A stretch of 64,000 nucleotides of DNA from Aedoeadaptatus nemausensis (lineage in GTDB: Bacteria; Bacillota; Clostridia; Tissierellales; Peptoniphilaceae), in the NCBI RefSeq assembly GCF_903819165.1, contig NZ_CAIJCS010000014.1:1-64000 (forward strand), written 5' to 3'. Shown one piece after another: positions 35,586 through 54,880 of the stretch. Every line of letters begins with the position of its first letter. Position 1 is the first letter of the stretch. Both the position numbers and the translations under genes were made by a program. The notes beneath the pieces are model-generated. The model searched no databases and was not told the DNA's origin. It saw nothing but the letters and a program-made list of their open reading frames with translations.

Positions 35586-38420
35586 TTACCGCCTCGTATT
35601 TTTACGATTATTCGTCGTTTTCTTCGACGAGGAACGATTATTCTTATTTTGCTTGGCTTGAGCTTTTAGAGCTTCTTCCTGTTCTTTCTCCTGCTCTTCC
35701 TGTTGTCGTTGCATTTCTTCGTACCATTCCTTAGTGTGAATCTTACAATAACCCGAGGGTAGCGTATAATAATCCTTCGGACGGATATTATCGAATTGAG
35801 ACGGGTCATATCCCTTCGGTCGCACGAAGTAATAACCATAGGTAATGGTTTCGTGAGGGCAGTAGGTGGAAGCTCTCTCGCCCGAGACCGAGCAGATAAG
35901 AAGGCGTGTGTAATCTTCCGTAACCTCCTTCGGTGCCGTTCCCGGTAGGAAAGGAAGAGTAATCGTGGAGCCGGCGCGCCTTGCGTAAGTGGAGGCGAGT
36001 CCGCCGGTCTTGTCGCTTACCTCAACCATTTCCAAAGAATCGGGGAGAGTCCACTGATCTTTGTCACCGACAATTCCATAGAGGGAAGCGTAAAAGGACT
36101 TTGCGAGATCCTGATTGTCGCTTAGGGGTAGCTTTTGAATTTCATTGCCCATCCAAAGGCCGTAAGTATAGCGAGGGGTGGAGCCCACGGTCATGTAGTC
36201 GGAGTTAAATTTATTTTCACCGAAGATAGCGTATGCGTCGTAGCCCTGTTGCTGAATAGACTTCGATAAGGGCGAGAGGGAGAGGGCGTAGCGAAGAAGT
36301 ACATTGCTTTCCTTCGGGAAAGTAACAGATTTCGATTCGTGTCGGTAGAGTATCTTGCCTTCCCCGTCCTGAATAGATTCTACTATATAGTTTTCGCCCA
36401 CCTGAGGAGAAGCGATTTTAGAATAGGCACTTACGAGCTCTTTCAAACTTACTCCGTCTACGAGATTACCGGATGCCAGGCCGTCGTAGGTAAGGTCATT
36501 GCGCGCCTTATCTTCGGAAGGCGTGCGAATGGCATCTTCCGAAGAATTGTCGTAAAGGCCGAGAAGTTTCAGCGTCTTTAAGCTCCCATCGAAACCGTAG
36601 CGTTCGATGATTTTGCCGCTGATGGCCTCTCGCGTGTGGGCTGCACCGTCGGCCAAGACATCGTAGCCGTAGAATTCTCTCTGCGCCGGCCAAATGGCAC
36701 CGTCGATCTTAAGAGGCGTGTCGTCGTAAGAAGTGGCGAGAGTATCACCTTCTATTAGTGCCGTCAAATAGGTCGATAAGGGCACGAGGGCGGTTCCCGG
36801 TTGGCGTCTGCTGTTTAAGTGATTGAAACGGAGACGGGCCGGATTACGTAAACTATTTCCGCCTGCAAGAGCGACGATTCCGCCGGTTTCATTATCCGTA
36901 ATAAGGGCGGCGGACTGAGGTTGTAAACTGGACTCTTCCGGAAAGAGGAAGAGTTCTTTAGAAAAGACTAACTTTCCGTCTTCTTCTTTAATGAAATCAC
37001 CGTATTTATCCAAGACGTTTTTTGAAATCTTAAACTCCTTATCGCCTGTAATTTCTCCCGGTTCAAAGGCGGTTGTGCCGCCGGAGATAGTTTTCAAATT
37101 GTCGCGTCCGTCCAATGTATAGAGATTTTTAAGATGAACCGTATTATTTTTTTGAACAAAGGCGGGATTATGGAAGATAAGATTTCCGTTTTTGAACTTG
37201 TAATAGTCTTTGGCTAAATGTAAATTACCATCGCTATCGAACAGATTGCCGTAACGCAGGTAGAGAGTGTCGCCTTTTTCATCTATCATATTTCCAAATT
37301 CATCGGTAGAAAAATCTACGAAATGAGCGCCACGGTTGCGTCCGTTTTGGATCAGTTGGGCGTAACCGTCGTACAAATCTTCCATGCCCTTTTGATATTG
37401 AGGGACGATTGTTGATTGAATGGTGAGGCCACCTTCCCGAATCATTTGTGTGGCGCGATCGCGATCGATTTTTTGAGCGGTCATCAACGCCTGAACGGCT
37501 TCCTCAGTTACGAAATCGGCTACATAAGATGTATAGGGAGAGGGTTCCTCCTGTTTCGGAGCAAAGTGAATGTCTTTTAATGATGCGGATTCGGCATCCT
37601 CGGAGGAAAGGTAGTGAGCGTCGGCCATGGCCTGCAGTACGGTATTTTTCCGCTCCATGGCGCGCTCGTTCTTTTCAAGATCGTATACCTTATCGCCGAC
37701 GGATTGTGTGGCGACGATATTCTCATTCTTATCGTCAGAAGCCGGAATGCGCTTGAGTGCTTGGTAATTGGCGGGAGATTTTGCAATGCCCGCGAGAAGG
37801 GCTCCTTCTTCTACGGTTAAATCTTGGACATGTTTAGAAAAATAAGATTGGCTCGCCGCCTCCACGCCTTGGCTGCCAAGTCCCAGATCCACGCGGTTTA
37901 AATAGGCCTCTAAAATATCTTCTTTTGAAAGTTTTTCTTCTAAGGCCAGTGTTATGTACGCTTCTTTTAATTTTCGAGCCACGGACTGATCGGTGCTTAA
38001 ATACACATTTTTAACCAACTGCTGCGTAATGGTGGATCCGCCTCGGACAACCCGGCCGCTTTTCATATTGGCGGCAAAACTCGCAAAGATTTGACGTAGA
38101 TCCAGGCCGTGATGTTCATAAAAACTGCGGTCTTCGATGGCCAAAAAAGCATCCTGCACATGTTTCGGCACCTGATTTAATGCTACGTGTTCACTGACGA
38201 CGGAAGGATCTACCTCGTCGATGGTGTTGCCGTCCGCATCGAGAATAATCGAGGTTTCGGCGATGGAGCCTTTAAGCTCGCTGAAGTCGACAGACTCGAC
38301 GGAATGAAGAATGGTAACTACCCATGCGCCCAAAATACCCGCAATCAATACGACTACGAAAGCGAGAATGCTGAGGGCGAGGTGAATAGTATTTGAATGA
38401 TTTTTTATTTGATGGGACAT
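35586..38420 (-). CDS. Class A PBP-like glycosyltransferase with degenerate transpeptidase domain
   Basis: A 944-residue membrane protein with an N-terminal anchor (about 13-38). The GT51 peptidoglycan glycosyltransferase domain (about 75-240) is intact: AIEDRSFYEHHG with catalytic Glu96, GGSTITQQLVKN, RKLKEAYITLALE and EAYLNRVDLG. The transpeptidase domain keeps its fold markers (ALITDNETGGIVALAGG, RQPG, YTYGLWMG) but loses every catalytic motif. SxxK after RQPG reads TALV (Thr543, Val546), the SxN segment reads SGKII, and KTGT reads GENKFN. The C-terminus is a long Gln/Glu/Lys then Lys/Arg/Asn-rich tail. The ATG at 38420 has AGGAGG six bases upstream. It is expected to polymerise lipid II but not crosslink. 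Confidence 0.88.
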   Translation of the reverse strand: MSHQIKNHSNTIHLALSILAFVVVLIAGILGAWVVTILHSVESVDFSELKGSIAETSIILDADGNTIDEVDPSVVSEHVALNQVPKHVQDAFLAIEDRSFYEHHGLDLRQIFASFAANMKSGRVVRGGSTITQQLVKNVYLSTDQSVARKLKEAYITLALEEKLSKEDILEAYLNRVDLGLGSQGVEAASQSYFSKHVQDLTVEEGALLAGIAKSPANYQALKRIPASDDKNENIVATQSVGDKVYDLEKNERAMERKNTVLQAMADAHYLSSEDAESASLKDIHFAPKQEEPSPYTSYVADFVTEEAVQALMTAQKIDRDRATQMIREGGLTIQSTIVPQYQKGMEDLYDGYAQLIQNGRNRGAHFVDFSTDEFGNMIDEKGDTLYLRYGNLFDSDGNLHLAKDYYKFKNGNLIFHNPAFVQKNNTVHLKNLYTLDGRDNLKTISGGTTAFEPGEITGDKEFKISKNVLDKYGDFIKEEDGKLVFSKELFLFPEESSLQPQSAALITDNETGGIVALAGGNSLRNPARLRFNHLNSRRQPGTALVPLSTYLTALIEGDTLATSYDDTPLKIDGAIWPAQREFYGYDVLADGAAHTREAISGKIIERYGFDGSLKTLKLLGLYDNSSEDAIRTPSEDKARNDLTYDGLASGNLVDGVSLKELVSAYSKIASPQVGENYIVESIQDGEGKILYRHESKSVTFPKESNVLLRYALSLSPLSKSIQQQGYDAYAIFGENKFNSDYMTVGSTPRYTYGLWMGNEIQKLPLSDNQDLAKSFYASLYGIVGDKDQWTLPDSLEMVEVSDKTGGLASTYARRAGSTITLPFLPGTAPKEVTEDYTRLLICSVSGERASTYCPHETITYGYYFVRPKGYDPSQFDNIRPKDYYTLPSGYCKIHTKEWYEEMQRQQEEQEKEQEEALKAQAKQNKNNRSSSKKTTNNRKNTRR

Positions 38421-38505: not shown

Positions 38506-39783
38506 GTGGAAAAACATATTACGGAACGACAGAAGGTTATTACCGCCGCAGCGTGGGACGATAAAAATAAATATAATGAAGAAAGTTTAAATGAGCTGAA
38601 CGATCTCGTAGATGTAGCAGGCGGTATAGTGGTGGGAACAGCGACGCAAACGGTACGCAGCTTTCATCCGGCAACTTTAATGGGAAAGGGAAAGCTGGAG
38701 GAAATTAAGATGGCCGCCGAAACCCTCGAGGCGGAGCTCGTGATTTTTGACGGCGAGCTTACCGGTATTCAAATGCGGGAAATCGAAAAGGCATTGGATC
38801 TTCCCGTCCTCGATCGCACGGCACTTATTTTAGATATTTTTGCATCGAGAGCCCGTACCGACGTGGGAAAACTGCAAGTTTATCTCGCACAATTGGAATA
38901 TGGAAAGACCCACTTGATCGGAAAGAAAAATTATTCCAGACTGGGCGGGGGAATCGGTACTCGCGGACCCGGTGAGCAAAAATTGGAAATCGACAGGCGT
39001 CGCATTAACGACGATATAATGCGCACGAAAAGGAAGCTGAAGCGGGCGCAAAAAGTTCGGGACACGGGTCGTAAACAGAGGGAACGATCGGACATTCCAT
39101 CCATCGCTATTGTAGGATATACCAATGCGGGGAAATCCTCCCTTATGAACCGACTGCTCAGAGAATCGTCGGCACAGGGCAAGGAGGTTTACGTAGAAGA
39201 CATGCCTTTTGCCTCTTTGGATCCCGATACGAGGAGAATCACCCTTCCCGGCGGGTTGGTTGTCTATGTAACGGATACCGTCGGCTTTATATCCAATCTT
39301 CCCACCACCCTGATCGAATCATTCCACACCACATTAGAAGAATTAAAAGATTCCGATCTCATTATTCATATGATCGACGGATCGGGAGAAGATGAAGCAC
39401 TACGTTATGAGACGACACAAAAACTCTTAAGCGATCTGGGCGTTCGCGACACGCCGATTATTTTATTTGTCAATAAGGCGGATCAAATGGAACATAAGAG
39501 ATTGCCTTTCCTTCCTTCGGAACATCGCGTTCTTTACGGATCGGTGAAAAAGGACCCTACTATCGAGCCTTTGTATGAAGCTATCGAAGAGGAATTAAAA
39601 TCCAAATATGTTAAAGTGGAGATGGCATTTTCATACGGGGAAATGCACCTTGTTGAAGAAATAAAAAGTCGCTTTCCGGTGGATTCCTTCGAATATACTG
39701 ATGAAGGCGTGGAACTCAAGGCCACGCTCCCGAAAGTTTACTTAAATCGCTATAAAGAGCAGATAAGGAGGCGCTATGTATAA
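38506..39783 (+). CDS. hflX: Ribosome-associated GTPase HflX
   Basis: A 425-residue GTPase that splits stalled or hibernating ribosomes. The N-terminal HflX domain (FHPATLMGKGKLEEIK, DGELTGIQMREIEKALDLPVLDRTALILDIF) is followed by a Gly-rich and coiled linker (RLGGGIGTRGPGEQKLEIDRR). The G domain has VGYTNAGKSSLMNRL (G1), DPDTRRI, DTVGFISNLP (G3) and FVNKAD (G4). The start is GTG at 38506 with AGGAGG six bases upstream. It overlaps yigZ by eight bases. Confidence 0.94.
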   Translation: MEKHITERQKVITAAAWDDKNKYNEESLNELNDLVDVAGGIVVGTATQTVRSFHPATLMGKGKLEEIKMAAETLEAELVIFDGELTGIQMREIEKALDLPVLDRTALILDIFASRARTDVGKLQVYLAQLEYGKTHLIGKKNYSRLGGGIGTRGPGEQKLEIDRRRINDDIMRTKRKLKRAQKVRDTGRKQRERSDIPSIAIVGYTNAGKSSLMNRLLRESSAQGKEVYVEDMPFASLDPDTRRITLPGGLVVYVTDTVGFISNLPTTLIESFHTTLEELKDSDLIIHMIDGSGEDEALRYETTQKLLSDLGVRDTPIILFVNKADQMEHKRLPFLPSEHRVLYGSVKKDPTIEPLYEAIEEELKSKYVKVEMAFSYGEMHLVEEIKSRFPVDSFEYTDEGVELKATLPKVYLNRYKEQIRRRYV

Positions 39784-45932: not shown

Positions 45933-48278
45933 GTGCGAGAGCAGAAAATAAATCAGAACAAAAGAGTGAGAAAGAGAAAGAAGAATCATCGTTCTTTTGG
46001 TACGCGCTTTAAAAGTATGGACCGAAAGGCGGCACTACTGTATTCGATCCTTTTCTCGCTCTTTTTTATTTTGCTCATCCGCGTCGGTTATTTACAAACC
46101 GTCGAATCGGACAGTTTAACTCGGGACGCATTGGCGCTGGACAGTGCGCAGAACAAGAAAAATGCCCGCGGACTCATTGTGGACAGTAGCGGTAAAGAAC
46201 TGGTCTCCAATATCAGCAGATCGGATATTTACGTGGACACGGAAACACTTTTAAAGAGTAAAAACAGTGCTAAATATAAAGAGCAGTTGATCAGCATCGC
46301 GGGAAAAACGCTGGATATGACGAAAGAGGAAGCCGAGAAACGTCTGGAGAAAAAAGGCCACGTTCTTCTTAAAGGAAATGTGGATCGGTCCTCGGCTATG
46401 CGCGTTCGCGACACCGATATTCCCGGCGTCGTCGTGGAGGATTTTGAAGCCAGGTCCTATCCCTATAATGATCTGGCTTCCCTCATTATCGGCTTTACTA
46501 ATAAAGACGGAGAAGGGCGCTACGGACTGGAACGCTATTATAACGAGACCTTAAGCGGCAACAGTGCCATTCTTTCTTCTCAGGAAGATCCTTCTTCCGT
46601 CGTCGAAGGAGGAGGAAGTTTAAAGCTTACGATTTCCGAACCTTTACAACGAAAAACCGAGGAGATCCTCGACAATTATCGTGAAAAGAACCAAGCGAAG
46701 CGCATTACCGCCATCGTTCAGGAGACACAAACGGGCGCTATTGCCGCTATGGCTTCCACAGATGATTACAATTTAAACTACCCCTATCGACCGGCGACGA
46801 AGGCGCAAAGTGCCGTGTGGAAAGATCTTTCTCAAGAACAAAAATCCGAGATGTGGTTCGATAATTGGCGAAACTTCTCTGTAAGCGATACCTACGAGCC
46901 CGGCTCTACCTTTAAGACCATAACGGCGGCGGCAGCTATCGAAGAGAGCACGACCAATCCCAAGAAGCACTATTACTGTACGGGTTATGTTCGAGACATT
47001 CCGGGCATAACCATTACCTGTACCTCTCTGCCCAATCCTCACGGAGACATCACCATGGATAAGGCATTTGCGGAATCCTGTAATATCAGCTTCGTCAGTA
47101 TTGCAAGAGAGCTTTCAAAAGAGGGCATGCTAAAATATATCCGAGCTTTCGGTTTCGGTGAAAAAACAGGCATCGACTTGCCTGCGGAACAGGAAGGAAT
47201 GGTTCCGGAAAGTGAAGATAAGATCGGAGATGCGCGCCTCGCTACGATGAGCTACGGTCACGGCATTGCCGTCACGCCCATTCAAATGGTAACCGCCATA
47301 TCCGCCGTCGCCAACGGAGGCTATTTGCTGGAGCCCTATGTGGTCGATGAAATCACAGATGCGGCGGGAAATCTCGTGGAAAAACACGGCACCGTCGTAC
47401 GGCGACAAGTCGTGTCAGAATCTACGAGCAACACCATGCGTAATTTAATGGTGCAGGTAGTTGAAAAAGGAACGGGTAAATATGGTGCCGTGGATCGCTA
47501 TTTAATCGGCGGAAAGACCGGTACGGCGGATAAGGTATCGGAAACCGGCGGCTATGAAAAAGATAAATATATCAGCAGTTTCGTTTCCGTAGGGCCTATG
47601 GACGATCCGAAATATACGGTGCTGGTTATCGTCGAGGAGCCTGAAGGAGATTATTTCGGCGCCACCGTTGCGGCACCGATCGCTTCGGATATTATGAACA
47701 CGGCGCTCCGCAGCGCAGAGGTTCCCTATTCCGCGGGCATGAAAGAGAAACAGGCAAAAAAAGTCATCGTTCCCAATGTGGAGAACATGCTTCTCGAAGA
47801 TGCGGGCAAGGCGCTTACGGATGTAGGCCTGAAATTTAATATGGCCTCCGAAAATGTGGGAGCCTTCGGTATTGTAGAAAAACAAGCGCCCAAAGCGGGC
47901 ACGGAAGTGGACGAAGACACGATCGTTGATTTAAAAGTAGATCCTAACGATGCCAACCGAAAGAGTGTGCCGAACTTCCTCGGAAAATCTAAAGGCGAAG
48001 TTGAAAGACTGTTAGAAAATTCGAATATCGATTATATTATGGAGGGAGAGGGGACGGTTGTCTCCCAGGAACCCTTAGCAGGAGAAGAGCTTCAAAAAGG
48101 AATGAAAGTTCGCCTGCGCCTCGAAGAAAAGCCTTCATCCGATAAAGACAATAAATCCGAGGAGGAATTTGGAGCGGGAGAGGACCGCTCTAAAGATCGG
48201 AAAGATCCTAAGATGAAGACCTCTTCTACAAAGCAGAAGACCCAAGAGGCGAAAAACAAGAAAAAAAGGAGTCATTAG
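45933..48278 (+). CDS. Division-specific class B PBP with PASTA domains (FtsI/SpoVD-like)
   Basis: A 781-residue monofunctional transpeptidase that crosslinks septal peptidoglycan. Basic N-terminus and one membrane anchor (about 36-52), a PBP dimerisation domain, then the transpeptidase with all motifs intact: STFK in YEPGSTFKTITA, SCN in AESCNISFV, KTGT in IGGKTGTADK. Two C-terminal PASTA repeats follow (KVIVPNVENML and SVPNFLGKSKGEV). The tail after the second PASTA is an unusually long Lys/Asp/Ser-rich stretch ending KNKKKRSH. The start is GTG with TAGGAG upstream. Confidence 0.93.
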   Translation: MREQKINQNKRVRKRKKNHRSFGTRFKSMDRKAALLYSILFSLFFILLIRVGYLQTVESDSLTRDALALDSAQNKKNARGLIVDSSGKELVSNISRSDIYVDTETLLKSKNSAKYKEQLISIAGKTLDMTKEEAEKRLEKKGHVLLKGNVDRSSAMRVRDTDIPGVVVEDFEARSYPYNDLASLIIGFTNKDGEGRYGLERYYNETLSGNSAILSSQEDPSSVVEGGGSLKLTISEPLQRKTEEILDNYREKNQAKRITAIVQETQTGAIAAMASTDDYNLNYPYRPATKAQSAVWKDLSQEQKSEMWFDNWRNFSVSDTYEPGSTFKTITAAAAIEESTTNPKKHYYCTGYVRDIPGITITCTSLPNPHGDITMDKAFAESCNISFVSIARELSKEGMLKYIRAFGFGEKTGIDLPAEQEGMVPESEDKIGDARLATMSYGHGIAVTPIQMVTAISAVANGGYLLEPYVVDEITDAAGNLVEKHGTVVRRQVVSESTSNTMRNLMVQVVEKGTGKYGAVDRYLIGGKTGTADKVSETGGYEKDKYISSFVSVGPMDDPKYTVLVIVEEPEGDYFGATVAAPIASDIMNTALRSAEVPYSAGMKEKQAKKVIVPNVENMLLEDAGKALTDVGLKFNMASENVGAFGIVEKQAPKAGTEVDEDTIVDLKVDPNDANRKSVPNFLGKSKGEVERLLENSNIDYIMEGEGTVVSQEPLAGEELQKGMKVRLRLEEKPSSDKDNKSEEEFGAGEDRSKDRKDPKMKTSSTKQKTQEAKNKKKRSH

Positions 48279-48281
48279 TTT

Positions 48282-49238
48282 ATGTTTACAACTTTGCCAA
48301 TCAGTTTTGGCCTGGGACTTATTTTCAGTTTAATAGGGGGGCACTACTTTATCCCCATGTTAAGAAGGTTACACGCTGGTCAGGAAATTCGGGAAGACGG
48401 GCCCCAATCTCACCTGGTGAAGGCGGGTACCCCCACTATCGGCGGCATTATCTTTTTAACATCCGCTATTTTAGCTACCTTGGTAATCAAAAATTTAACC
48501 TATGAAGCGATGGTTTTATTTATCTCCACACTGGGCTTTGGCCTTGTGGGTTTTGTAGACGACTATTTAAAAGTCGTCCACAAGCGAAACCTGGGTTTTA
48601 CAGCGCGTCAAAAACTTCTGGCTCAAATCTTGATCGCCGTTTTACTCTATGTATTGATTCGCACATCCGACGGCTTATCCACGGCTATGTTGGTTCCCGG
48701 TAGAGGCACAACATGGGAAATGGGTATTATGTTTATTCCTTTCATTATTTTCGTCGTCGTCGGAACGGTAAACTCTGTAAACTTAACAGACGGTCTCGAC
48801 GGGTTATCTTCCTCAGTTACCATCATCGTCATGTTATTTTTCTCCCTCGTAAGTTATAAGATGGGTCGAACATCCATCACCCTGTTTTGTCTGGTAATGG
48901 CTGGAGCTCTTTTAGGATTTTTGTTCTATAATAAATATCCTGCAAAAGTATTTATGGGGGATACGGGCTCTTTGGCGCTTGGAGGTGCCGTCGTAGCGGT
49001 GGCCATTTTGCTCAATCTACCATTACTGCTTCCCATTTGTTGCGGAATTTATTTTATCGAGACTCTCTCTGTGATCATCCAGGTAGTTTCTTTTAAAACC
49101 AGGGGCAAAAGAGTCTTTTTAATGAGTCCCATCCATCATCATTTTGAGCATAAAGGAATGAATGAAGTTCAAATCGTCGGTTTATTTTCCATCGTCGAAA
49201 TTGTTCTTTGCGTGATCAGTTATTTCCTGATTTTTTAG
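48282..49238 (+). CDS. mraY: Phospho-N-acetylmuramoyl-pentapeptide transferase
   Basis: A 318-residue polytopic enzyme making lipid I from UDP-MurNAc-pentapeptide and undecaprenyl phosphate. Conserved: HLVKAGTPTIGGIIF, FGLVGFVDDYLKVVHKRNLG (Asp pair), NSVNLTDGLDGLSS, FMGDTGSLALGG and the HHHFE segment PIHHHFEHKG. About ten membrane helices. Four bases after the PBP gene. Confidence 0.96.
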   Translation: MFTTLPISFGLGLIFSLIGGHYFIPMLRRLHAGQEIREDGPQSHLVKAGTPTIGGIIFLTSAILATLVIKNLTYEAMVLFISTLGFGLVGFVDDYLKVVHKRNLGFTARQKLLAQILIAVLLYVLIRTSDGLSTAMLVPGRGTTWEMGIMFIPFIIFVVVGTVNSVNLTDGLDGLSSSVTIIVMLFFSLVSYKMGRTSITLFCLVMAGALLGFLFYNKYPAKVFMGDTGSLALGGAVVAVAILLNLPLLLPICCGIYFIETLSVIIQVVSFKTRGKRVFLMSPIHHHFEHKGMNEVQIVGLFSIVEIVLCVISYFLIF

Positions 49239-49247
49239 GGGTGTACT

Positions 49248-50555
49248 ATGAAAAACAAAAAGATATTAGTTTACGGCTTGGGGAAAACCGGCCTGAGCGC
49301 CATCGATGCTTTGGGCGACGATAATACGCTTTATGTCTACGACGACGATCCGTCCCACTTTGATCTGGCGGAAGGTCTTCCCGTGTACGACGGGGAGGCT
49401 ATTGATTTCGTCATCAAAAGCCCAAGCATTCCACTGGATCAAGGCATTTTGCCGGAATTGGAGGAGCGAGGAATCCCCGTACTTTCGGACATCGAAGTCG
49501 CCTACCGTATTTCCGAGTGCGAAAATTTTCTCGCCATTACCGGCACCAACGGCAAGACGACGGTTACGGATCTGCTCTACCATCTCTTAATTGACGGCGG
49601 GAAAGTGGCCTATGTGGGAGGCAATATCGGCATCGGCATTTTGCCCATTGCAAAGCGCGCCGGTAAAGACGATATTCTCGTCATCGAATGTTCGAGTTTT
49701 CAATTGGAAACCATCGACGAATTCAAACCGAAAGTGGCGATATTAACTAATATTACAGAGGATCATTTAGACCATCATAAATCCGTAGATTCTTACCGCG
49801 AAAGTAAAAAGAATATATATAAAAATCAAGGAGAAGGCGATTACTTAATTTTAAATATAGACGATCCTTATCTCGCCATGACGGGCGAGGAGCTGGAATC
49901 TCCTCTTGTAGTAAGCACGACGCCCATTCAACAGGACGGAGCCTACAGGGACGGGGATAAACTTTATCTCGTTTTAGGCGGCGAAACGATCTATTTAATG
50001 GATCGTGACGAGATGCTTCTCGTAGGCGATCATAATGTACGCAATGCGCTGGAAGCTTCCTTAGCTGCTTATATTATGGGCGTAGATGTAGAATCTATTC
50101 GCAACACCCTTATGTCATACCGCGGTAAAGATCACCGTATGGAGTATGTGGCGGCTATCGGAGGGGTGGATGCCTATAACGACTCTAAGGGAACCAATCC
50201 CGATTCCACCGATGTAGCTCTGGCAAGTTTCTCGCGGCCGGTACGTTTACTGGCAGGCGGTTACGACAAAGGCAGTGATTTTAAAGAACTCTTTAAGCGC
50301 CATCACGAGGGTATTGCCGGCTTATATCTTTTCGGAGAAACGAAAAGTATTATGGAAGAGGAGGCACGGGAAGAAGGCGTTCGGAATATTCATGTCTTTG
50401 AAACTATGGAAGAGGCGACGGAAGAAGCCTTGGACGACAGTGAAGAAGGGGACATTTTATTGCTGTCTCCGGCCTGCGCTTCATGGGATCAGTTTAAGAG
50501 TTATGAAGAACGAGGGGATCGGTTTAAAGCGTTAATTTTAGAAAAGCGGAGCTGA
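49248..50555 (+). CDS. murD: UDP-N-acetylmuramoylalanine--D-glutamate ligase
   Basis: A 435-residue Mur ligase adding D-Glu to UDP-MurNAc-L-Ala. N-terminal Rossmann-like KILVYGLGKTGLSA, ATP-binding ITGTNGKTTVTDL, ILTNITEDHLDHH with the catalytic acid/His, DHNVRNALEASLAA, and C-terminal VDAYNDSKGTNPDST. It is the only Mur ligase in this cluster. Confidence 0.95.
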   Translation: MKNKKILVYGLGKTGLSAIDALGDDNTLYVYDDDPSHFDLAEGLPVYDGEAIDFVIKSPSIPLDQGILPELEERGIPVLSDIEVAYRISECENFLAITGTNGKTTVTDLLYHLLIDGGKVAYVGGNIGIGILPIAKRAGKDDILVIECSSFQLETIDEFKPKVAILTNITEDHLDHHKSVDSYRESKKNIYKNQGEGDYLILNIDDPYLAMTGEELESPLVVSTTPIQQDGAYRDGDKLYLVLGGETIYLMDRDEMLLVGDHNVRNALEASLAAYIMGVDVESIRNTLMSYRGKDHRMEYVAAIGGVDAYNDSKGTNPDSTDVALASFSRPVRLLAGGYDKGSDFKELFKRHHEGIAGLYLFGETKSIMEEEAREEGVRNIHVFETMEEATEEALDDSEEGDILLLSPACASWDQFKSYEERGDRFKALILEKRS

Positions 50556-50562
50556 TGAGGCT

Positions 50563-51660
50563 ATGTCTCAAATTAAAAAATATGTAGATCCTGTGTTGCT
50601 GGCTTCCATCATCATGCTGCTTATTGTCGGCGTGTTCATGGTGGCCTCCAGTTCGTGGGGAGAGGGCCTGAAGGAATTCGGCGACGGAAGCTATTACTTT
50701 AAGCGTCATGTCGTATTCCTCGTTATCGGCATCATTGCCTGTATCGCCGGATACGGCACGCCACTTAAAATCCTCAGAAAATTGGCCATGCCCCTTTGGG
50801 TCTTCAGCATGATTTTATGTTTAGCCCTTTTTACGGGTATGGGCGTTACAGTTAACGGTGCTACTCGCTGGCTGGCCATTCCGAAAACTAATTTTCAATT
50901 TATGCCCTCGGATCTGCTCAAGTACACCTCTATTTTTTTTGTGGCTCATCTTTGCACGATTCACAGAAAAAGGGGGAGGCGTCAAGGTTTTCTACCGATA
51001 CTCTTCGTCATCGGCGTTTCGGCGGGGATCGTCGTCATCGAGGATTTTTCTTCGGCGAGCGTCATTACTATCAGTCTGATGAGTATGTTTTTTATTTCCG
51101 GCATGAGTTTCTCGGAACTGATCGCCATCCTTTCCTTAGGTGCGATGGGTATCTATGGGTTTGTCCTTCGCGTACCCTATCGTATGAAACGACTTACCTC
51201 CTTTTTAGATCCCTTCGACGATATAGGGAATACGGATTGGCAACTGGCCAATTCTCTTTATTCCATCGGCATCGGATCCATTACGGGAGTCGGTTATTTT
51301 AACGCCCATCGAACATTTAATCGTTTGCCGGAAGCATACAATGACTTTATCTTTGCGGTTATCGGTCAGGAATTCGGCTTGATCGGCTCTGTCGTCGTGA
51401 TCTTGCTTTTTGCGATTTTTATAGCGAGAGGCTTTCAGACGGTCAGAATGCAGAGAAAATTTTACGAAAAACTGGTAGCGACGGGGATCGTCGTATCCAT
51501 TGGATTTCAAGCTTTTTTTAACATGGGCGTCGCCGTGGGACTTTTGCCCGTTACGGGATTAACCTTACCCTTTATCTCTTATGGCGGTACCGCTCTCATT
51601 CTCGTAATGGGAATGAGCGGCATTTTACTCAGACTATCTGCGAAAGGAGCGTCACGTTGA
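50563..51660 (+). CDS. ftsW: SEDS-family glycosyltransferase FtsW/SpoVE
   Basis: A 365-residue SEDS protein with about ten membrane helices, which polymerises lipid II with its cognate class B PBP. Family signs: FMVASSSW at the first extracellular loop, GATRWLAIP, FMPSDLLKY, VVIEDFSSAS with the essential Asp region, and the C-terminal LLPVTGLTLPFISYGGTALI. Its location between murD and murG marks the division paralogue rather than RodA. Its stop overlaps the murG TTG start. Confidence 0.92.
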   Translation: MSQIKKYVDPVLLASIIMLLIVGVFMVASSSWGEGLKEFGDGSYYFKRHVVFLVIGIIACIAGYGTPLKILRKLAMPLWVFSMILCLALFTGMGVTVNGATRWLAIPKTNFQFMPSDLLKYTSIFFVAHLCTIHRKRGRRQGFLPILFVIGVSAGIVVIEDFSSASVITISLMSMFFISGMSFSELIAILSLGAMGIYGFVLRVPYRMKRLTSFLDPFDDIGNTDWQLANSLYSIGIGSITGVGYFNAHRTFNRLPEAYNDFIFAVIGQEFGLIGSVVVILLFAIFIARGFQTVRMQRKFYEKLVATGIVVSIGFQAFFNMGVAVGLLPVTGLTLPFISYGGTALILVMGMSGILLRLSAKGASR

Positions 51661-52754
51661 AAGTAATTCTCTCAGGTGGCGGCACCGGAGGCCATATTTA
51701 TCCAGCTTTGGCCATAGGTGAAGCGTTAAAAAATAAAGTAGAGGATGTGGACATTCTCTATGTAGGAAAAAAAGACAGCATGGAAGAGGAGTTGGCTAAG
51801 AAAGAAGGATTGAAATTTGCTCCTGTGCATATCAAGGGCTTTCCCCGAAAAAAAATCAACAAAGAGTCCATCCTCACTATGATGGAACTTTTACGAGGTC
51901 TACACGATGCGGGAGAGATACTGAAGGAGTTTGAGCCCGATGTGGTTATCGGTACAGGAGGCTATGTATGTGCGCCCATCGTACTGAAAGCCCAAAGAAA
52001 AAATATAAAAACGGTGATTCAGGAACAAAACGCCTATCCGGGAAAGACCAACCGCCTTCTGGCGAAGCGCGTCGATCTTATCGCATACAGCTTTAAGGAG
52101 GCGGAGCATTATTTTCCCGATCATGCTAAAAAGCTTTACACGGGTAATCCTATTCGCTCCAGCTTTCAGAAGGTACAAAGAGAAAAAGCGCTGGAAAATT
52201 TAGGTCTCGGGAATGAAAAATCCTTGGTACTTTCTTTCGGCGGTAGTGGCGGTCAGGAATCTACAAATGAAGCGATTTTAGAAATAATGGGACATTACAA
52301 AGAGCTTCCCTTCCATCTCGTACACATTACGGGGAAGGAACATTACGAAGGTTTTGTAGAGCGAATGCCTGAAGTCGACGAGAATTCCTATACTATTCTC
52401 GATTATTCTCATCAAATTCCGGAGTTTCTCGCCGTAGCGAAACTCGTGGTTGCGTCTTCTTCCGCCATGACCCTTGCAGAAATCAGTGCAATGCACTTGC
52501 CCTCGATCCTTATCCCCAAGGCTTACACGGCAGGTAATCATCAATACCATAATGCCATGAGTTATAAAAAAGCCGATGCGGCGGAGGTAATCGAAGAAAA
52601 AGATTTAAATGGACAGGTATTGCTCGAGGTCATGAAGAGGCTGCTCGATAATGAGGAAGCATGTCGAGCTATGGGAAATGCTGCCTATGGTCTTATTAAC
52701 CCTAAGGGAACGGAAGAAATTGTTGACGCCATTTTAGAGGTGGTGTCCTCATGA
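51657..52754 (+). CDS. murG: UDP-GlcNAc:lipid I GlcNAc transferase MurG
   Basis: A 365-residue GT28 enzyme completing lipid II. Motifs: VILSGGGTGGHIYPALAIGE, GTGGYVCAPIVLKAQ, IQEQNAYPGKTNRLLAKRV, LSFGGSGGQES, and the sugar-nucleotide site VVASSSAMTLAEIS with HLPSILIPKAYTAGNHQ. The start is TTG at 51657, with AAAGGAG before it and a stop-start overlap with ftsW; it overlaps ftsQ by four bases. Confidence 0.95.
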   Translation: MKVILSGGGTGGHIYPALAIGEALKNKVEDVDILYVGKKDSMEEELAKKEGLKFAPVHIKGFPRKKINKESILTMMELLRGLHDAGEILKEFEPDVVIGTGGYVCAPIVLKAQRKNIKTVIQEQNAYPGKTNRLLAKRVDLIAYSFKEAEHYFPDHAKKLYTGNPIRSSFQKVQREKALENLGLGNEKSLVLSFGGSGGQESTNEAILEIMGHYKELPFHLVHITGKEHYEGFVERMPEVDENSYTILDYSHQIPEFLAVAKLVVASSSAMTLAEISAMHLPSILIPKAYTAGNHQYHNAMSYKKADAAEVIEEKDLNGQVLLEVMKRLLDNEEACRAMGNAAYGLINPKGTEEIVDAILEVVSS

Positions 52755-53695
52755 CGGAGAAAAGGCGGAAGAGAAAGAAAAAGCTCAAGCGGAAATATCG
52801 CAATCGCCGAATCCTACTTGTCGTCGTTTTAATCGCGATTATCGCCGGCGGATGCTTTTTGTTTTCATCTCTTACGGCTACTCAGGAAGTGGCGATCTCA
52901 GGAGCGAAGGTTGTTCCGAAGGCGACCATTCGCCAAATCACAGACGATTATGTAAACAAAAGTTACCTCACAATGGATAGGAAGAGCCTGAAGAATCGCT
53001 TGGAGCAATTACCTTATGTAAAAAGTGCAGACATCGGCCTTTCCTTTCCTCATACCTTAACCGTCTCAATAAAAGAAGAGGTGCCGTCTGCTCAGCTTTA
53101 CAGCGGGGACGGATATATACTCGTTAACGAAAATTTTAAAGCTCTCGCTAAGACCAGATCCTATGACACGAGTCTTCCGAAGATTACGGGAATCCCCACA
53201 AGAGGGGTCAAGCTCGGTCAGGTAGCTCTTAAGGAAACGGGTAATGAAAAGAAGATTGCCATGATTCAAGCTCTCTTTCTTTCTGAAATAAAAAAGGATA
53301 TCAATACACTGGCCATATTGGATCGAGGCGTAAAGATTTCATTTTCGGATGGAACCATCGTTCATATTCAAAGTTTTAACGATGCCGAATATAAGGTAAA
53401 ACAACTTGAAGAAATTCGCAAAGAGATGAAACTTAAAGATGAAACTTATCGCGAGATTTATCTGGATCAGGGAGATCATCCCGTTGCGGTAAAACCCTCT
53501 TCCATGGATGAGGATTTAAGCGATGAAGAAGTCGACGGGCAATTGGAAGAAGGGAATACATCTCAAACTAAAAATAAAAGCGAAAAGATGGAGAAAGAAG
53601 GAGAAGAATCCTCAAAAAAAGATTCTAAAAACAATGAGGATGAAGAGAATAAAGAACAAAAACGCAGTGCCGAGAAAGAGCATGAAACGAGGTAG
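52751..53695 (+). CDS. ftsQ: Cell division protein FtsQ/DivIB
   Basis: A 314-residue bitopic division protein: very basic N-terminus (KRRKRKKKLKRKYRNRR), one membrane helix (about 23-40), POTRA domain (EVAISGAKVVPKATIRQI) and beta domain (LPYVKSADIGLSFPHTLTVSIKEEVPSA) through about 235. From residue 240 the sequence becomes a low-complexity tail rich in Glu, Lys, Asp and Ser to the C-terminus, longer than usual for DivIB. Last gene of the mraZ run; ftsZ has a separate promoter. Confidence 0.88.
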   Translation: MTEKRRKRKKKLKRKYRNRRILLVVVLIAIIAGGCFLFSSLTATQEVAISGAKVVPKATIRQITDDYVNKSYLTMDRKSLKNRLEQLPYVKSADIGLSFPHTLTVSIKEEVPSAQLYSGDGYILVNENFKALAKTRSYDTSLPKITGIPTRGVKLGQVALKETGNEKKIAMIQALFLSEIKKDINTLAILDRGVKISFSDGTIVHIQSFNDAEYKVKQLEEIRKEMKLKDETYREIYLDQGDHPVAVKPSSMDEDLSDEEVDGQLEEGNTSQTKNKSEKMEKEGEESSKKDSKNNEDEENKEQKRSAEKEHETR

Positions 53696-53706
53696 TACGC
53701 CTTTTC

Positions 53707-53735
53707 TTGACTTGTACTGATTTTCTCTATAAAAT
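53707..53735 (+). promoter_or_regulatory. Promoter of ftsZ
   Basis: TTGACT and TAAAAT with a 17-bp spacer, about 53 bases before the ftsZ ATG; TAGGAGG is the ribosome site. Confidence 0.7.
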
Positions 53736-53788
53736 GTAATAAATTGATTTGATTTCATGGCTTATGTGCGCGAATTAGGAGGATTTAA

Positions 53789-54880
53789 ATGTTGGATTTT
53801 GATATGGATCATGAAGAATTTGCAAAAATTAAAGTTGCAGGTGTAGGAGGCGGTGGAAACAATGCCGTCAACCGTATGATTAACGCCGGCGTTCGCGGCG
53901 TAGAATTTCTCGCTATTAATACCGATCGTCAAGCTCTAAAAAACTCTTTAGCTGAGACGAAGATTCAAATCGGCGAAAAAGTAACAAGAGGCCTCGGTGC
54001 CGGCGCAAACCCGGACATCGGCGAACAATCGGCTGAAGAAAGCCTGGATGAAATTCGCGAAGCCTTAAGCGGAGCGGACATGGTATTTATTACTGCCGGC
54101 ATGGGCGGCGGTACCGGTACGGGAGCAGCCCCAATTATTGCCGATGTAGCGAAAGATTTAGGCGCATTGACCGTAGGCGTCGTAACGAAGCCCTTCTCTT
54201 TTGAAGGTGCTCGCCGTACGAAACAAGCTATTCGCGGTATTGAAGAATTAAGAGACAAAGTCGATACTTTGGTTATTATTCCCAACGACAGACTGTTTAA
54301 TATTTCCGACAAGAAGACCACTTTCTCGGAAGCTTTCGTCATGGCGGATGAAATCTTGAAACAAGGTATTCAAGGTATCTCCGAACTCATCAGCGTCCCC
54401 AATGTTATTAACCTCGACTTTGCAGACGTTAAAACCGTTATGCATGACAAGGGCATCGCTCACATGGGTATCGGTTACGCTTCCGGAGACGATAGAGCAA
54501 CTGAAGCTGCGCGCAATGCCGTAGAAAGTCCTTTACTCGAAACCTCTATTCAAGGAGCTAAATCCGTTCTGTTAAACATTACCTCCGGTAACGACCTGGG
54601 TATGTTTGAAATGAACGAAGCGGCCGATTTAATTCGTTCCACCGTCGATGAAGATGCCAATATTATCTTCGGTGCCGGTATCGATGAATCCTTGAAGGAT
54701 CAAGTGAAGATCACCGTCATCGCTACGGAATTTGATCAAGATGACGACGATAAGTCGAAAAAACAAACGAAGGGCTTCAATGTCTCTAAAGACGATCAAA
54801 ATGAAAAAGTGAGCGGATCCGGCAAGAAAGAAAAAGACGACGAGTTAAATATTCCGGATTTTCTTCGCAGAATGAGATAG
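53789..54880 (+). CDS. ftsZ: Cell division GTPase FtsZ
   Basis: A 363-residue tubulin homologue. GTP-binding: [24 protein letters not shown], tubulin signature [13 protein letters not shown], and the T7 loop [12 protein letters not shown] variable charged linker (315-350) leads to the C-terminal peptide [10 protein letters not shown] that binds membrane tethers. ftsA is not next to it, so the tether (FtsA or SepF) must lie elsewhere. Confidence 0.97.

Follow-up and report, generated by a model that had tools for sequence, protein, structure and literature searches.

Class A penicillin-binding proteins of the Peptoniphilaceae with a conserved glycosyltransferase domain and a transpeptidase domain stripped of its catalytic motifs

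Class A penicillin-binding proteins (PBPs) join polymerisation and cross-linking in a single protein, with the GT51 motifs serving the glycosyltransferase (GT) half and the SxxK, SxN and KTG motifs the transpeptidase (TP) half. Here we describe a natural departure from this plan in Aedoeadaptatus nemausensis (Peptoniphilaceae; assembly GCF_903819165.1), encoded on the minus strand at positions 35,586 to 38,420 of a 64,000-nucleotide stretch of contig NZ_CAIJCS010000014.1—the window, in what follows. The closest described relative of this protein in both sequence and fold is 7u4h, a solved structure labelled Pbp1a of Chlamydia trachomatis, which shows the same domain order and aligns through the linker insertions (residues 46–942 of the window protein; the best solved relative by sequence). 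The two differ in their motifs: 7u4h, together with 83 orthologues from the same family, keeps SxxK, SxN and KTG wherever these regions are readable, whereas the window protein has none of them. The source label of 7u4h is probably wrong, as the chain matches the PBP1 of one of the family genomes surveyed here (G118, L230:253–3165), with approximately 900 residues identical from the start to the low-complexity tail; moreover, a review (PMC5814848) counts Chlamydiae among the organisms without class A PBPs.

Three further systems frame the comparison (PMC12539705 and PMC5089857, like the other papers named here, are cited from partial texts). PBP1 of Clostridioides difficile is a class A PBP whose laboratory TP mutant provides an engineered analogue of the natural state of the window protein. 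The wild-type enzyme is TP-active and this activity is needed for growth, in contrast to the window protein with no TP motifs, and TP-dead PBP1 still makes septa; the other transpeptidases listed for C. difficile are class B PBPs and L,D-transpeptidases and include no further class A PBP, while one of its class B PBPs assists septum synthesis without catalytic activity of its own (all PMC12539705). In Escherichia coli, the S510A variant of PBP1b polymerises lipid II in vitro (work cited in PMC5089857) and supports ceftriaxone resistance mediated by the L,D-transpeptidase YcbB (PMC5089857)—a pairing of a TP-inactive polymerase with a separate cross-linker that also operates under beta-lactams. 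S510A is an engineered point mutant, however, while the loss in the clade of the window protein is natural, multi-site and clade-wide. Finally, monofunctional glycosyltransferases (MGT/MtgA) carry out glycan polymerisation without transpeptidation, which is the activity expected of the window protein, and one such enzyme occupies the corresponding locus in a related genus; unlike these enzymes, the window protein still has a TP region, full-length and constrained, as well as a C-terminal module. Engineered TP-dead class A PBPs are already known, and a natural TP-dead clade is apparently new: none is described in the titles and starts of abstracts listed by searches of the open-access literature, outside of which most subscription papers fall.

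The gene begins with an ATG at 38420, with an AGGAGG box directly upstream, and its frame is uninterrupted across 944 amino acids. Its parts are listed below, with the evidence for each in brackets (AF2, AlphaFold2; dN/dS, ratio of nonsynonymous to synonymous substitution rates).

35586..38420, minus strand: gene for the class A PBP orthologue with absent TP motifs, 944 residues (open reading frame, Pfam, family comparison)
38304..38414, minus strand: N-terminal membrane-anchor helix, residues 3–39 (helix H3-39 in the AF2 model and a hydrophobic stretch)
37710..38231, minus strand: GT51 glycosyltransferase domain, residues 64–237 (Pfam PF00912, Transgly, E 9e-58; genome match C14:37710–38231)
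38106..38135, minus strand: GT motif EDRSFYEHHG with the catalytic Glu, residues 96–105 (sequence scan and alignment)
36939..37709, minus strand: linker with insertions, residues 238–494 (aligned through to 7u4h)
36051..36938, minus strand: pseudo-TP domain, residues 495–790, fold predicted to be kept (AF2 model, structure comparison, dN/dS)
36783..36794, minus strand: former SxxK, now TALV, residues 543–546 (alignment with relatives)
36627..36635, minus strand: former SxN, now TRE, residues 596–598 (alignment with relatives)
36216..36227, minus strand: former KTG(T), now IFG(E), residues 732–735 (alignment with relatives)
36000..36014, minus strand: decoy KTG (DKTGG, residues 803–807), part of the C-terminal module and distinct from the catalytic motif (alignments and scan)
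35736..35894, minus strand: C-terminal module with Cys843, Cys854, Cys892 and His895 (alignment columns)

The membrane anchor and the GT51 domain with its catalytic motifs make the window protein a class A PBP by descent. A preliminary description of this DNA had proposed an intact GT51 domain carrying the catalytic Glu, and scan, alignment and Pfam all bear this out, with E96 and the other GT51 motifs present (GGSTITQQLVKN at residues 127–138). The best NCBIfam match is TIGR02074 (PBP_1a_fam; residues 77–778, E 3.7e-95), although its 319.7 bits lie below the cut-off of 508.75; the score against the monofunctional model TIGR02070, 151.1 bits, likewise falls below the cut-off of 182.65, which, together with the predicted TP fold, places the protein outside that group. 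No match to the Pfam transpeptidase model is listed for the window protein at E≤1. The same preliminary description had read the former SxxK as TALV and the KTG as destroyed, and alignment with relatives agrees on both counts (T543-A-L-V546 and I732-F-G734). Its placement of the former SxN at SGKII (residues 601–605) needs amending, as the aligned position is T596-R-E598, some five residues upstream of SGKII; this change of register leaves the alignment-based conclusion of triple motif loss unchanged. The protein accordingly departs from a bifunctional class A PBP at all three positions.

We also scanned the whole protein for intact motifs lying elsewhere in the TP domain and found none at the catalytic positions. 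SxxK-like words occur at residues 47, 228, 635, 930 and 931, SxN-like words at 466, 650 and 767, KSG at 120 and KTG at 804. Those within the TP region—SEDK at 635, SGN at 650 and SDN at 767—were rejected as candidates, since neither the family alignment nor the one with 7u4h puts any of them at a catalytic position, and the KTG at 804 was set aside because it lies opposite an RTG of 7u4h, beyond the real KTGT of that structure. Between the GT and TP domains, the insertions at residues 238–494 correspond in position to the stretch holding the GI domain of C. difficile PBP1. According to PMC12539705, this domain is also present in class A PBPs of the Peptoniphilaceae; the GI-domain alignment of that paper covers PBP1 homologues from Bacillota, Tissierellia among them, and motif loss goes unmentioned in the partial text.

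As the preliminary description had supposed, the penicillin-binding fold appears to survive. The AF2 model of the window protein has a mean predicted local distance difference test (pLDDT) score of 81.9, with values below 50 in loops 525–531 and 628–639. Structure comparison matched the model to 7u4h_B with a VIA Z of 40.8, a root-mean-square deviation (rmsd) of 3.3 and 548 residues aligned, and to TP-only chains with Z values of about 35–36, e.g., 2v2f_F (Z 36.2, rmsd 2.5, 340 residues aligned). A penicillin-binding/transpeptidase fold is therefore predicted for the window protein.

To place the protein in its family, we surveyed 130 genomes of the Peptoniphilaceae and counted the GT51 genes in each. 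An orthologue without KTG occurs in 36 of the 130 (read in the main open reading frame in 35 and in a separate second frame in L083), and all 36 show further loss: of SxN only in eight, of SxxK only in 14 and of both in 14. Each of these TP-dead genomes holds two or three GT51 genes (36/36). By contrast, 83 genomes have a single GT51 gene, and the motifs of this orthologue are intact wherever readable—the KTG region in 80 and the SxxK and SxN regions in 82. The rest of the sample comprises four genomes of genus g13, three of genus g4 and four without a GT51 match. All four g13 genomes combine a canonical class A PBP with a monofunctional GT in a frame of 267–300 amino acids (L092–L095), whereas the three g4 genomes have a canonical second PBP, and the orthologue search found no copy in them. 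The four genomes with no GT51 match include three that are 65–81% complete, along with G057 (99% complete), where there is a single weak match to the window protein (E 1.9e-24). The catalytic GT Glu is kept in all 34 clade members covering that position. Across the family alignment, with the motifs intact in 83 single-copy orthologues where readable and KTG lost in 36 of 36 clade members, the motif loss is beyond chance; a state common to 36 genomes also rules out sequencing error or decay in a single genome. Readable orthologues in 16 order-level genomes are intact as well. One of the sequences considered, L157 from Lachnospiraceae, was rejected as a second TP-dead case: a pattern search had missed its motifs, and it reads SCFK and KSGS. 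A wider scan for relatives listed at least 80 loci, most of them distant class A PBPs; the two best, at 31% and 30% identity, have intact motifs by pattern, and no member of the TP-dead clade was among the loci listed.

A tree of the GT domain (102 rows) places the 34 TP-dead rows with a GT domain on one branch, which has support 91/90 and recurs in 89% of bootstrap trees. The 28 second PBPs likewise form one branch (100/100), and so do the four monofunctional GTs (100/96). The monofunctional GTs sit beside the TP-dead clade (86/75), on a branch that also contains the very long row L060, which makes their precise position uncertain. Among the second PBPs, the g13 and g4 sequences nest with sequences from TP-dead genera (a node of 15 rows, 99/97). 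The association between motif loss and a second PBP rests on a single clade and therefore counts as one origin with later steps, not as many independent events. The genomic context provides a further marker of orthology:

38506..39783, plus strand: hflX-like GTPase gene, divergent neighbour of the PBP gene, marking the orthologous locus and also found beside the g13 monofunctional GT (translation)

This gene, which we take from its translation to be hflX, lies at most 1.5 kb away in each of the 31 TP-dead loci for which this much flank was retrieved. All four g13 genomes show the gene order of the window: the monofunctional GT is divergent from the adjacent hflX, and yigZ and nadE come next. 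As hflX also adjoins several intact orthologues, it marks the locus and not the TP-dead state. On these grounds, we read g13 as holding a truncated copy and g4 as having lost its copy.

The preliminary description had asked whether a second class A PBP, of canonical type, accompanies this one in the genome. The window assembly (1.8 Mb, 99.5% complete) contains two GT51 genes, and the second one (L054, contig C19, 809-aa frame) has SSIK, SSN and KTGT intact. More broadly, the second class A PBP was available as sequence in 28 genomes (21 of the 36 TP-dead genomes, 4/4 of g13 and 3/3 of g4), and none of the 28 has lost any of the seven motif residues. Among the matches listed for the other 15 TP-dead genomes, 13 show a second GT51 match in an open frame of 796–837 amino acids; G130 and G140 have two GT51 matches by count, the second of which is not among the matches listed. 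A separate observation concerns the TP-dead genome G023, where a third GT51 match (C105:1931–2425, in a 256-aa frame) is perhaps another monofunctional GT.

Selection on the two halves of the protein was estimated as dN/dS by the Nei–Gojobori method in ten TP-dead pairs, three intact PBP1 pairs and five second-PBP pairs. In the TP-dead pairs, the ratio is 0.05–0.22 in the pseudo-TP domain (some dS values being saturated) and 0.03–0.10 in the GT domain. For functional TP domains, the corresponding values are 0.04–0.13 in the intact PBP1 pairs and 0.045–0.123 in the second-PBP pairs, ranges that overlap with that of the pseudo-TP domain. By these estimates, the pseudo-TP domain is under purifying selection that is relaxed but far from neutral. 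In 33 of the 36 clade members, a single open frame runs from the membrane anchor through the C-terminal module, the exceptions being L081 and L082, which reach contig ends, and L083, which is split. The preliminary description had remarked that a frame open over 944 codons does not look like simple decay; the open frame, considered with the dN/dS values, sets the gene apart from a pseudogene and adds constraint to that remark. The same figures bear on the idea that the whole protein is non-enzymatic and regulates the second class A PBP. A precedent exists in C. difficile PBP3, which promotes septum synthesis without catalysis of its own (PMC12539705); in the window clade, however, the GT51 residues are kept, the GT domain is strongly constrained in the ten pairs, by the range given above, and the lineage that dropped the TP half retained the GT, making this explanation very improbable.

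We consider it likely that the window protein is a beta-lactam-insensitive glycan polymerase with a retained pseudo-TP domain serving mainly as a non-catalytic structural or docking module. The sequences show the motif loss, a predicted fold, constraint and the association with a second GT51 gene; from these we infer GT activity, an absence of beta-lactam binding, the use of other cross-linkers and a docking or regulatory role of the pseudo-domain. In the scheme we propose, the presence of a second bifunctional class A PBP would have made the TP activity of the old enzyme redundant. The KTG motif would have been lost first, because it is absent from all clade members, followed by SxN or SxxK or both. 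The polymerase would then hand its glycan strands to other cross-linkers, while the pseudo-TP half, in its structural or docking capacity, would hold the GT in position and under regulation. In the g13 lineage, the pseudo-TP half may later have been cut off, leaving a monofunctional GT. The preliminary description had arrived at a comparable interpretation, a polymerase with a pseudo-TP domain kept for another role. Its basis stands—lost TP catalytic residues, retained GT motifs, a predicted fold, a constrained frame and a second class A PBP in the genome. The GT-only locus of g13, the three g4 genomes in which no copy was found and the faster evolution of the TP domain speak against a role needed everywhere.

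Several points weigh against this proposal. The g13 truncation (four genomes) and the g4 absence (three genomes) indicate that the domain or the whole gene can be dispensable, and these related genomes count against a role that is needed everywhere. The pseudo-TP domain also evolves faster than intact TP domains: at a GT identity of 0.5–0.6, the 227 TP-dead pairs have a mean TP identity of 0.34, against 0.46 for 1658 pairs of intact orthologues and 0.56 for 219 pairs of second PBPs, in a comparison that excludes three partial TP-dead rows and three partial intact rows and in which the pairs are mutually dependent. Several dS values exceed 1 and are unreliable, including that of the window pair L008–L009 (2.5 in the TP domain). 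The Pfam transpeptidase model matches 15 of 20 scanned clade members (E≤0.01), a sign of uneven degradation, and two members, L070 and L079 (both g54), have no ATG, GTG or TTG before the anchor and contain stops within the longer match; their 5' ends may be broken, or another start may be used. As for the predicted fold, the AF2 model was built on an alignment of the window protein with 38 distant class A PBPs that show at least 90% conservation of SxxK, SxN and KTG, and these motif-bearing homologues may pull the model towards the canonical fold. Finally, TP-dead PBP1 does not sustain growth of C. difficile (PMC12539705).

Some of these observations are what one would expect if the TP half were simply decaying, kept only because truncation is rare and the TP half does no harm, with only the GT domain mattering and the g13 enzyme as the end point. 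The graded loss of motifs across the clade, the faster TP evolution, the short GT that takes this locus in four of the 130 genomes, the three genomes in which no orthologue was found and the two members without a clear start codon all fit such a course. Yet dN/dS is far below 1 in each of the ten TP-dead pairs, with the saturation of some dS values already noted; a single frame spans the entire protein in nearly all members, short of the two at contig ends and the split one; and the C-terminal module is conserved in the TP-dead orthologues though variable in the intact ones. Taken together, decay strikes us as unlikely.

The conservation of this C-terminal module deserves a closer look, as does that of the residues that have replaced the catalytic motifs. 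Of the 36 TP-dead orthologues, 35 have Cys843, Cys854, Cys892 and His895; in the remaining one, L083, the open reading frame read is partial. In the same four columns, 98 intact rows show Cys in 13, 26 and 26 and His in 25; in the 28 second PBPs, three of the columns are unaligned and there is no Cys at the fourth. A Cys3-His module of this type is a possible metal site. At the former KTG, the Gly is kept in all 35 readable clade members, and an Asn stands two positions on (the fifth of KTGTT) in 34 of 35. This near-invariant Gly-x-Asn might suggest new catalytic or ligand-binding chemistry in the old TP cleft. However, the former Ser and Lys of SxxK have not been replaced by one fixed pair: among the 36 clade members, the Ser position holds Ser in 21, Thr in 13 and Asn in two, and the Lys position holds Thr in 15, Lys in ten and other residues in 11. 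We know of no reaction for such replacement residues in a TP cleft, and we regard new chemistry as scarcely credible.

A more specific version of the structural or docking role is conceivable, if doubtful: the pseudo-TP domain and the Cys3-His module could have been repurposed as a receptor or allosteric switch that gates the beta-lactam-insensitive polymerase by reading stem peptides or the partner class A PBP. If so, the polymerisation and cross-linking otherwise joined in one class A PBP would be split between two coordinated proteins. Whatever the exact role, the family offers a natural series—an intact enzyme, two or three motifs gone, the GT alone at the locus, and no copy—of which the last three states occur only in genomes with a second class A PBP. 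This series makes a non-catalytic role of TP domains testable by comparison, a question for which the papers cited above, as far as their partial texts go, have relied on engineered mutants. It also leads to a prediction: TP-dead species should possess a beta-lactam-insensitive polymerase, and their genomes should contain annotated PBPs that do not bind penicillin.

The second class A PBP is one candidate cross-linker in the window genome; others are the proteins with transpeptidase-domain matches at C14:46707, 137649 and 322312–323574, and one YkuD-domain protein. The genome also encodes three SEDS proteins, including one from the dcw cluster, whereas C. difficile is reported to lack functional FtsW/FtsI orthologues (PMC12539705). 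The dcw cluster lies in the window, and two of its members are:

45933..48278: FtsI-like PASTA class B PBP in the dcw cluster (transpeptidase match)
50563..51660: FtsW-like SEDS protein in the dcw cluster (SEDS match)

The cluster as a whole extends over 45933–54880, and from the translations we presume its genes to be those for the FtsI-like PASTA class B PBP, mraY, murD, the FtsW-like SEDS protein, murG, an FtsQ-like protein and ftsZ.

In Trichomonas vaginalis, the gene TVAG_243790, which bears the name penicillin binding protein transpeptidase, is part of a fragment acquired by transfer from a relative of Peptoniphilus harei (PMC4082486, partial text), and a class A PBP in that cassette is reported to have the GI domain (PMC12539705).

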